Part shown: piece by piece, positions 7,346-17,819 of the stretch
Layout of the letters: each line of letters opens with the position of its first letter
How positions within the stretch are numbered: the first letter of the stretch is position 1
From: a virus
DNA: 36,119 nt
IMG/VR virus record: IMGVR_UViG_3300017782_000079
Location: 1 to 36,119 of that record
Reading direction: 5' to 3' (one strand)
Notes under the pieces: generated by a model
The model's input: the letters and a program-made list of their open reading frames with translations, nothing else
Databases searched by the model: none
What the model was told of the DNA's origin: nothing
Position numbers and translations under genes: made by a program

Positions 7346-7523
7346 CATAGGTGATACTGTTACTGCTAAAGTATTAGGTACTCATGGAGAAGAAGAATAC
7401 GTAAGTGGAGAAATTGCATCAATAAGCGAGGATTATGTTTTTATAGTAAGCAAATACCCTCGTAAAAAACACTACTCAATAAAAACCCAAAACATCATAG
7501 GAGGAGTTAATGGGCAAAAATAA
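7317..7523 (+). CDS. Small beta-rich hypothetical protein
   Basis: A TTG-started frame overlaps the end of the resolvase gene by 29 bp and the start of the replication gene by 14 bp. The 68-residue product reads like a small beta barrel (IGDTVTAKVLGTHGEEEYVS, GEIASISEDYVFIVSKY) with a basic stretch PRKKHYSIK. It may be a KOW/Tudor-like or DNA-associated accessory, but no family is recognised. Coupling to the replication initiator suggests a replication-related role. Confidence 0.65.
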   Translation: MDNEFKNSLSIGDTVTAKVLGTHGEEEYVSGEIASISEDYVFIVSKYPRKKHYSIKTQNIIGGVNGQK

Positions 7524-8511
7524 ATTAGGTAAAGCGCCGGCATTTCAGTTTTATGCTAGCGATTTTTTATCAGATATAAATGTAACCACAATGACAATGG
7601 CTCAAAGAGGTATGTATATAACCTTGCTAGCATTTGAATGGATTGAAGGGTCATTACCTACCGATATATTAAAACTAAGGATTTTATGTGGTAATCATCC
7701 TGATTTTGATAGCGATTGGCAAGTCGTTAGCAGTTGTTTTACTAATTCAGATGGAAAACTATACAACAACCGCTTAGAATCAGAGCGCAGTAATATGGTA
7801 GCGTATAGAGAAAGAATGAGCGCTAATGGACGAAAAGGGGCGGAGAGCAGATGGCAAGGCCATGGCAAGGCCATAGCTAAGCCATCCAATAAAGAAGTAG
7901 AAGAAGAAGTTGTAGTTAAAAGTAAAAGAACAAATGTAAAAAAACAATTTACAGATGAATTTTTAAATGAATTTTGGACATTATACCCACGTTCTGATAA
8001 TCGTAAAAGAGCGCTTGATAAATATGTACTGATTAGAAAAAGTGGAACCTCAAAAGAGAATATTATAGATGGTCTAAAAAATTATATGAAATATTGGAAA
8101 GCTAAAGGAACAGAGCCTCAATACATCCCTATGGCTAGCACTTGGTTAACTCAAGAGCTTTGGGGCGATGAATTAATGTTTAAAAATACCGGAGTACAGA
8201 ATATTAATGTACCTATAAAGCAAGATTGGATGTGCCTTGAATGTGGACACGAAAAAACTACTGACACTAAAGAACTTAATAAAGAAGAAAAGTTTTGTAG
8301 TGAATGTAAAGATGGTATTTACGAGACAAAAAGAATGGCTTTACTTGAGCGAAGATTAATAGAAGCTGATAGTGCTAGAAAGAAAAATACTGGACAGCAG
8401 GACATTCCTACTGGAAAGCTCAAGCTAGAACGCCAGACGCAGCCCAGAAATCAGGGAAGCAGCGACAATTCTAGCACGTTAGCAGATGTTCTGCAAAGTT
8501 TTGGGGCGTAG
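7510..8511 (+). CDS. DUF1376 replication initiator / DnaT-like protein with internal iterons
   Basis: Residues 8-105 match DUF1376 (AFQFYASDFLSDINVTTMTM, then RGMYITLLAFEWIEGSLPTD), a winged-helix domain of phage replication proteins. Residues about 150-225 form the second conserved region (FLNEFWTLYP, then YIPMASTWLTQELWGDE) seen in DnaT/DnaD-like helicase loaders. Residues about 235-265 hold a zinc ribbon (C-L-E-C ... C-S-E-C). The linker near residues 114-125 is encoded by three 11-bp iterons, the arrangement of lambda O, where the origin lies in the initiator gene. Likely role: origin recognition and loading of host helicase. GGAGGAG precedes the ATG. Confidence 0.8.
   Translation: MGKNKLGKAPAFQFYASDFLSDINVTTMTMAQRGMYITLLAFEWIEGSLPTDILKLRILCGNHPDFDSDWQVVSSCFTNSDGKLYNNRLESERSNMVAYRERMSANGRKGAESRWQGHGKAIAKPSNKEVEEEVVVKSKRTNVKKQFTDEFLNEFWTLYPRSDNRKRALDKYVLIRKSGTSKENIIDGLKNYMKYWKAKGTEPQYIPMASTWLTQELWGDELMFKNTGVQNINVPIKQDWMCLECGHEKTTDTKELNKEEKFCSECKDGIYETKRMALLERRLIEADSARKKNTGQQDIPTGKLKLERQTQPRNQGSSDNSSTLADVLQSFGA
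7851..7883 (+). repeat. Three 11-bp iterons inside the replication gene
   Basis: ATGGCAAGGCC occurs at 7851-7861 and exactly again at 7862-7872, followed in register by ATAGCTAAGCC at 7873-7883 (8 of 11 identical). The same family occurs inverted at 17372-17437. A purine-rich AAGAAGTAGAAG tract follows, as it does beside the other array. Candidate initiator-binding sites and origin element. Confidence 0.75.
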
Positions 8512-16533: not shown

Positions 16534-16697
16534 ATACTACGTATTACTCCCATAGGTTGAAGTCGCTCGGATAGGTCGCATTTCGGTCTATGCCGAGGGT
16601 ATAGAAGCCTAGCTAGGAATCGAACCTAGCTATCCCAAAGGGATAGAGCCGTCTCTAGGCTTTGCCGGACTTGCCGGTGTATGAGTACGCGCCTTAT
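16424..16697. other. Non-coding, structured GC-rich region
   Basis: No convincing gene is present in these 274 bases. From left to right: repeat units, a strong hairpin (GTAATAC/GTATTAC, 16531-16547, extended by GGG/CCC), a second hairpin (CTCGG-ATAG / CTAT-G-CCGAG, 16566-16597), the tRNA-like element (16605-16662) and a TTGCCGG direct repeat. A 27-residue hydrophobic plus-strand frame (16451-16534) has no ribosome site. The region probably makes a structured leftward leader or small RNA. Confidence 0.6.
16605..16662 (-). ncRNA. D-armless tRNA-like structure
   Basis: On the minus strand AAGCCTAG (16662-16655) pairs with CTAGGCTT (16612-16605) as an 8-bp acceptor-like stem. Inside lies a T-arm with stem CTAGG/CCTAG and the canonical loop TTCGATT. 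A second hairpin, CTATCCC-TTT-GGGATAG, sits in the anticodon-arm place; drawn with a 7-nt loop it would show UUU but C at the U33 position. The D-arm is reduced to 8 bases and no CCA is encoded. It is therefore not a standard tRNA. Confidence 0.45.
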
Positions 16698-16946: not shown

Positions 16947-17278
16947 GGTTTTTCTCCTGTTCTACGCATAGGGTGGTATCCTTACGCGTAAGTTCGTTAG
17001 TTTGAATCCGACTGAAACTGTCCGTCGGCGACATCCAAACTTAAGCATGAAAGCTAGGCAAAACCTAGCGAAACTTATATAACCGTCGGCTATAAGGCTC
17101 AAACGTAGGCAAAACTAGGGCAAATGGTCGCAAAGATATGAATGATTGCGCCTAGCGAGGAGAGAGCCAACGCGAAACGCGAACTCAACGAGAATCGAGT
17201 GAGTCGTCCGGGAAACGAGCCGGGTGTGCATACGTATATAACGTTCCACACATTTTTTACACAGTTTTTTAGTGCCTC

Positions 17279-17310: not shown

Positions 17311-17340
17311 GGGAGTAGTTAGGGAGTAGGTTGGGAGTAG
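17311..17340 (+). repeat. Three GGGAGTAG repeats at 11-bp period
   Basis: GGGAGTAG begins at exactly 17311, 17322 and 17333, so all three sit on the same helical face. The spacing equals that of the unrelated iterons beginning at 17372. Candidate binding array for an origin or transcription factor. Confidence 0.7.
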
Positions 17341-17371
17341 GGTTTTATATCTAACAATACTAACACTTAAT

Positions 17372-17437
17372 AGCAATGCCATATTTATAAAATGGCTTTG
17401 CCATAGCTTTGCTATAGCTTAGCTATAGCCTTGCCAT
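17372..17437 (-). repeat. 11-bp iteron array matching those in the replication gene
   Basis: Read on the minus strand from 17437: ATGGCAAGGCT, ATAGCTAAGCT, ATAGCAAAGCT and ATGGCAAAGCC (17427, 17416, 17405, 17394 as left ends). Then comes an AT-rich unit and a degenerate ATGGCATTGCT at 17372-17382, still in 11-bp register. The consensus AT(G/A)GC(A/T)A(G/A)GC(C/T) is the same as the three iterons at 7851-7883. Confidence 0.8.
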
Positions 17438-17441
17438 GCAT

Positions 17442-17500
17442 ATAGAAGTAGAAGTAGAAGTATATAGTATTATATAATATATATAATTAATAAATATAAA
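17442..17500. other. Origin candidate: GAAGTA repeats and AT-only unwinding tract
   Basis: Directly after the iterons come three GAAGTA units (about 17445-17462) and then 40 bases (17461-17500) containing a single G or C. Iterons beside such a tract are the standard layout of a theta-type origin with a DNA unwinding element. The initiator would be the DUF1376 protein. Confidence 0.6.
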
Positions 17501-17524
17501 CCTTAGGTTTATAAACCTTAGGTT
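17495..17524 (+). repeat. Tandem 15-bp repeat
   Basis: TATAAACCTTAGGTT occurs twice head-to-tail (17495-17509 and 17510-17524). Each unit contains the near-palindrome AACCT-T-AGGTT. It lies about 100 bases upstream of the first packaging-side gene and is a plausible operator for that transcript. Confidence 0.75.
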
Positions 17525-17555
17525 GCAAAATCAACCATTTTTTACTTTTAACTAC

Positions 17556-17621: not shown

Positions 17622-17819
17622 ATGGCTTACGAAGCAAAAGACAACACATTTAGTATGTTTGATAACGAGAATAAAACAAATGAAAACCAACCCGACTTTA
17701 CAGGTCAGGGCAAGATTGGTGGTAAGGAAGTAAAAGTTGCCGGATGGAAGAAGACATCAGCTAACGGCAAAGAGTACATTTCTTACAAGGTAGAAGAAAA
17801 AGGCGCTTACCTTGGCTAA
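17622..17819 (+). CDS. Small DUF736-like protein
   Basis: The 65-residue product has an acidic, Asn-rich N-terminus and a C-terminal beta segment, FTGQGKIGGKEVKVAGWKKT then NGKEYISYKVEE. This recalls DUF736-type phage and plasmid proteins (G-x-x-x-I-G-x-K, AGW-x-K, G-K-x-Y-I-S). AGGAG precedes the ATG. It heads the rightward packaging transcript; a ssDNA- or RNA-associated role is possible but unproven. Confidence 0.65.
   Translation: MAYEAKDNTFSMFDNENKTNENQPDFTGQGKIGGKEVKVAGWKKTSANGKEYISYKVEEKGAYLG

Follow-up and report, generated by a model that had tools for sequence, protein, structure and literature searches.

A DUF1376 protein and two matched 11-bp iteron arrays suggest a putative paired origin system in a group of phages

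What function could account for two matching sets of 11-bp repeats in one phage genome, one inside a putative replication initiator gene and the other in intergenic DNA about 9.5 kb away? The genome is an IMG/VR virus record of 36,119 bp, the whole of which was analysed (hereafter the window), and it contains a P22-like portal gene. A preliminary description made from the sequence alone had reported the repeats and compared the gene with those of lambda-type phages. The existence of two separate arrays at this distance was confirmed, their synteny being conserved in relatives, and the repeat unit can be written as the near-palindrome GCYATRGC followed by a 3-nt spacer, giving a repeat period of 11 bp. 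The principal features are as follows.

7510..8511, plus strand: putative initiator gene (333 aa), assigned from Pfam and PHROG matches and AlphaFold2 models
7851..7885, plus strand: array 1, three 11-bp iterons in end-of-domain and linker codons, with constrained silent sites
17370..17437, no strand assigned: array 2, intergenic and conserved in relatives, with four exact iterons (17394-17437) and a detached degenerate unit (17370-17380)
17622..17819, plus strand: DUF736-like gene, the marker of the array-2 position in all relatives

The three units of array 1 (ATGGCAAGGCC at 7851-7861 and again at 7862-7872, ATAGCTAAGCC at 7873-7883) fall within the open reading frame at 7510-8511, exactly where they were first described and in the same 11-bp register. 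Array 2, for which four to five units had been proposed, comprises four exact units read on the minus strand and the detached copy, which carries one mismatch; its earlier description as inverted means little, because the near-palindromic unit matches both strands at the same sites. A search of the window with a two-unit pattern (ATRGCNNNGCYATRGC, one mismatch allowed) returned 10 matches, all of them exact and all inside arrays 1 and 2, against 0.17 in dinucleotide-preserving shuffles, so that genome-wide no copies of the array motif are found beyond the two sites. A search of phage DNA with the array-2 region as query yielded nothing informative, an Rfam search around array 2 found nothing, and the cumulative GC skew tracks the direction of transcription and did not locate an origin.

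Other elements were seen in the vicinity of array 2. Tandem 11-bp GGGAGTAGTTA/GGGAGTAGGTT repeats (17311-17343) lie just ahead of it and recur in close relatives and once in L240, and an upstream block conserved in relatives, GGGTGTGCATACGTATA...CATTTTTTACACAGTTTTT (17220-17270), is possibly a leftward promoter. At 16600-16640 on the minus strand, CCTAGCTAGGA-TCGAACCTAGCTATCCC resembles a tRNA 3' end and is also present in L294, L007 and L042; it was not matched by ARAGORN or Rfam over the window, and in several relatives it lies near the extra array.

The two sites share a second element which the preliminary description had overlooked. The sequence GAAGWAGAAGWAGAAG occurs only twice in the window (0.05 expected), at 7894-7909 and 17445-17460, in both cases on the plus strand and 7-8 bp past the final unit of an array, an arrangement indicative of two matched modules in the same orientation. 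The corresponding tracts and the adjoining unstable DNA are listed below.

7894..7917, plus strand: triplet/hexamer tract GAAGTAGAAGAAGAAGTTGTAGTT after array 1
17445..17460, plus strand: tract GAAGTAGAAGTAGAAG after array 2, variable in length in relatives
17449..17555, no strand assigned: AT-rich stretch and candidate unwinding element, containing the 50-bp and 100-bp windows of lowest stability in the record

In the whole record the least stable 50-bp window starts at 17449 and the least stable 100-bp window at 17455, and duplex stability near array 1 is only in the lowest 2-11%. The unstable DNA beside array 2 is kept in the nearest relatives and is absent from the L023/L066 clade. Triplet-periodic DNA just past initiator sites and ahead of easily melted DNA recalls the DnaA-trio, an unwinding element made of 3'-(G/A)AT-5' repeats (PMC10797057). 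We did not adopt that label for the tract, as only alternate triplets fit (TAG AAG TAG AAG) and the GAAGAT repeats of other clades do not.

Array 1 appears to be maintained as DNA. Comparison of seven diverged relatives at positions encoding a shared amino acid found the same codon in 83% of cases for the iterons and 90% for the tract, against 52% and 58%, respectively, predicted from those amino acids in the rest of the gene; the observed identities were reached in 0 of 20,000 resamplings. This synonymous-codon test points to constraint as DNA beyond the protein, as would be expected of an intragenic iteron origin. As the 11-bp period is out of frame, no protein repeat accounts for the array.

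Profile matches and structure prediction divide the encoded protein into the following regions.

aa 16-116 (approximate): DUF1376 domain, predicted winged helix
aa 119-138: disordered linker
aa 143-214: three-helix domain
aa 238-273: C-terminal Cys4 zinc-ribbon-like region

The DUF1376 (PF07120) profile score of 25.3 bits does not reach the curated Pfam cut-off of 30.1, and the assignment is based on homology over the whole domain through a graded series of relatives, including 62-63% identity to L208/L228, which itself scores 45.1 bits for DUF1376. The PHROG families matched by the protein are described as primosomal or replication initiation protein, and its C-terminal part matches replication-initiation PHROGs. 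An AlphaFold2 model of DUF1376 (pLDDT 89.6) predicts a winged helix that leads into a long helix, and on the model of the whole protein the codons of iterons and tract map to the end of this helix and to the disordered linker. Foldseek returned weak matches, none with E below 0.1, with RepA_N plasmid initiators among the top 12, and a sequence search of the PDB found no relative. Tandem sites thus lie between the N- and C-terminal domains of an initiator-like gene, as in an intragenic iteron origin, and the original placement of the iterons between the DNA-binding and C-terminal domains of their own initiator is well supported by the model, the silent-site constraint and the 11-bp arrays found across the family.

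A scan of viral contigs for three array units, made without reference to proteins, identified 76 stretches, 74 of them in new loci. DUF1376 is present at 38 of the 74; among the remaining 36, a DUF736-like gene marks 24 as the array-2 position and two have DUF1376 elsewhere on the record, so that 64 of the 74 lead to DUF1376 genes or to the syntenic second site and 10 are left unexplained. A permuted motif of the same composition was found at nine loci, against 76 stretches for the true motif, and five of the nine again fell in DUF1376 genes, with GCATATGC-type repeats, showing that the iterons differ between DUF1376 genes. A 12-bp-period control gave at least 120 loci, seven with DUF1376, and a 12-bp array inside five of these seven genes indicates that 11 bp is the main but not the sole spacing. 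On bacterial genome contigs DUF1376 accompanied only 2 of 37 motif loci, most of the matches being unrelated repeats (Aequorivita, coding repeats), and the motif by itself is therefore not diagnostic. In the Aequorivita genomes the GCTATGGCTTT arrays are scattered between genes, have conserved flanks and are not accompanied by DUF1376; they form an unrelated chromosomal repeat family (L308-L310, L321, L325, L328-L333, L336, L340, L341, L343, L344).

The family was also sampled by protein similarity, giving 57 nonredundant DUF1376 genes that were scored against same-locus controls at a 99th percentile cut-off. Period-11 self-matches exceeded the cut-off in 16 of the 57 linkers (~0.3 expected), compared with at most six for each of the periods 10, 13, 14, 16 and 22, and the other 41 linkers did not pass this strict test. 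Short tandem tracts of period 3-6 are present in 34 of the 57 linkers and in 2% of controls; looser tract measures were used here in place of a strict pyrimidine-triplet regex, which missed most tracts. Throughout, the control windows mix coding and noncoding DNA and the related sequences lack phylogenetic independence. The arrays in DUF1376 linkers fall into several sequence classes, and between clades the style of the tract is common while the iteron sequences are different.

Two gene layouts occur in the family. Proteins of 217-337 aa as a rule have the array in linker codons, ~310-360 nt from the start, with the exception of L026, whose units are immediately upstream of a 290-aa gene. DUF1376-only genes (120-143 aa), which have no linker, are preceded by a noncoding array ~170-660 nt from the start at 19 of 19 loci, in nearly all cases with a tract such as CTTCATCTTCACC behind it. 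The array therefore tracks the DUF1376 domain and not the C-terminal part. One DUF1376-only locus continues with a RepB-type primase and a helicase, the same order is found slightly further downstream of the DUF1376 gene in the cultured Pelagibacter phage Baldr, and in other named phages the gene is directly before DnaC-like or DnaB genes. In the linker of ydaU of Escherichia coli K-12 (L292 3620-4477), TGTTYRAACA-like repeats stand at offsets 392, 425, 437 and 448 of the gene, with AAAGATACAGATAAAGAT behind them, in the same place as the iterons of other DUF1376 genes. An active origin, oriJ, has been attributed to the Rac prophage (PMC3945230), and these repeats are a candidate for it by sequence.

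All 10 related records contain the two-unit motif both within the DUF1376 linker and at one or two distant clusters, and a reversed control pattern had zero matches in the same ten. The distant cluster is 7.5-11 kb from the linker array, except in G037, where the ~29 kb of the record as written is probably due to permutation, and the distant site lies ~200 bp upstream of the DUF736-like gene. In L235, L237 and L240 the orthologous intergenic site lacks a GCYATRGC array and is instead similar to the altered array in that genome's own linker, and by local alignment the best match of each of these linkers is the second site of its own genome. Own-genome matching of linker and second site as strong as that observed arose in 11 of 20,000 permutations over all lineages and in 3 of 720 when restricted to six distinct lineages; within the GCYATRGC clade a linker does not rank the second site of its own genome first, as expected where one motif is common to all. 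Local alignment replaced a 14-mer second-array finder that had fired on 27 of 312 controls against 3 of 57 linkers. Other DUF1376 families have no clear second array within 10 kb. One subgroup (L016, L025, L042, L047, L048 and L077) has two noncoding arrays ~870-880 bp apart at the distant site, as well as the initiator-gene array where the record extends to the gene.

Lambdoid phages, including lambda and Stx phages, have iterons and AT-rich DNA midway along their initiator gene O (PMC7466680). The locus shares intragenic iterons with lambda O/ori, and several DUF1376 phages also encode a helicase loader immediately after the gene, but it differs in the DUF1376 domain, the 11-bp iterons, the triplet/hexamer tract and the second matched module ~9.5 kb away. 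The earlier lambda-type label thus holds as an analogy and fails as an identity, the DUF1376 domain differing from that of lambda O and the weak fold matches including RepA_N. In the RepA_N protein of pSK41, the winged-helix N-terminal domain binds Rep boxes central in its own gene, and the linker is dispensable (PMC5703833). The general layout is similar, and RepA_N structures 5kbj, 4pta, 4pt7 and 4pql are among the top weak fold matches, but the Cys4 C-terminal region, the phage context and the second module are unlike RepA_N; RepA_N (PF06970) gave no Pfam hit, and the best Foldseek E to a RepA_N structure was 0.21. One initiator acting on iterons at two or more separated, cooperating sites is found in phage P4 (ori1/crr) and plasmid R6K (alpha/beta/gamma). 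Both the initiator and the repeats in the present phage differ from those of P4 and R6K.

These observations lead us to regard it as likely that DUF1376 is an iteron-binding domain, that the protein is a replication initiator and that the phage carries two matched modules for it. The chief competing account is that array 1 is the origin and array 2 an enhancer, a titration or handcuffing site, or an operator for divergent early and late operons. It is plausible, although we lean slightly against it: DUF1376 genes usually have their array in the linker, most DUF1376 families are without a second array within 10 kb, and array 2 sits between leftward and rightward genes among conserved promoter-like blocks. 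On the other hand, array 2 surpasses array 1 in number of units, is followed by a tract of its own and adjoins DNA less stable than any other in the record; in this combination it resembles a complete origin module, not a bare operator. Its position between divergent operons could also accommodate a purely regulatory role. In another reading DUF1376 would be a transcription regulator with no direct part in an origin, and both arrays would be operators. The upstream arrays of DUF1376-only genes do resemble autoregulation, but we consider this reading unlikely, given that the DUF1376 gene is placed where an initiator would be, with DnaC-like, DnaB or primase genes after it, that the array is intragenic in many families and that the C-terminal part has replication-initiation PHROG matches.

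Array 2 might instead serve packaging (pac/cos) or partition, since a large terminase gene lies ~2 kb downstream of it. We judge this very improbable, as the initiator gene contains the same motif, which accompanies DUF1376 from phage to phage, also where the gene has no linker and lies beside primase and helicase genes. Almost negligible, in our view, is the idea that the array and tract merely encode a low-complexity linker, with array 2 a chance or mobile-repeat copy. DUF1376 linkers are indeed of low complexity (Ser, Pro-Thr and Glu-Val runs) and similar motifs form unrelated chromosomal repeats in Aequorivita, but the out-of-frame period, the constrained silent sites, the co-occurrence of array and tract in noncoding DNA as well, and the concerted change of linker and distant sites all argue against it.

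Under the preferred reading of DUF1376 as an iteron-binding initiator domain, what the sequence itself holds (arrays, tract, association with DUF1376, DNA-level constraint, synteny and concerted change) can be placed in a mechanism in which we infer the binding, the unwinding, the helicase loading and the choice of firing site. The DUF1376 winged helix would bind the 11-bp iterons (GCYATRGC-N3) of two modules, one in the linker codons of the initiator and the other ahead of the DUF736-like gene at a distance of ~9.5 kb, each ordered as iterons, then triplet/hexamer tract, then easily melted DNA. The 11-bp period sets neighbouring sites about one helical turn apart, and protein stacked at this spacing may strain the adjacent tract and AT-rich DNA, which would together form the strand-opening part, while the C-terminal region would recruit the helicase or its loader. 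We are very confident that DUF1376 reads both arrays, and nearly as confident that the system acts in replication rather than in transcription only. Array 2, with more iterons, a tract and the least stable DNA, would be the likelier main origin, a proposal on which we remain evenly divided, and for array 1, placed as is usual in the family, we envisage the role of a second origin or partner site.

DUF1376 appears in no title or abstract of the literature searched, and its text mentions are limited to a single one in each of five papers. The present analysis supports the earlier interpretation in kind and broadens it from a single gene to a domain family, the new elements being the role given to DUF1376, the common tract and the concerted change of the paired modules. 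This would give DUF1376, a widespread domain so far lacking a known function that also occurs in YdaU of the E. coli Rac prophage, a testable job in binding the iterons of phage origins; with arrays placed either in the linker or ahead of the gene, origins may be predictable from sequence in many uncultured phages. Our best reading is that this phage group has two co-evolving origin-type modules. More tentatively, and with some doubt, DUF1376 may define a large, previously unassigned class of iteron-binding initiators with the triplet/hexamer tract as a second, conserved and strand-opening origin part, one phage group of which would possess two complete origins 8-11 kb apart, matched through iteron drift and acting together. 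The co-changing modules offer a natural system in which to study how a single initiator maintains the match among several sites, and whether there is cooperation between two phage origins.
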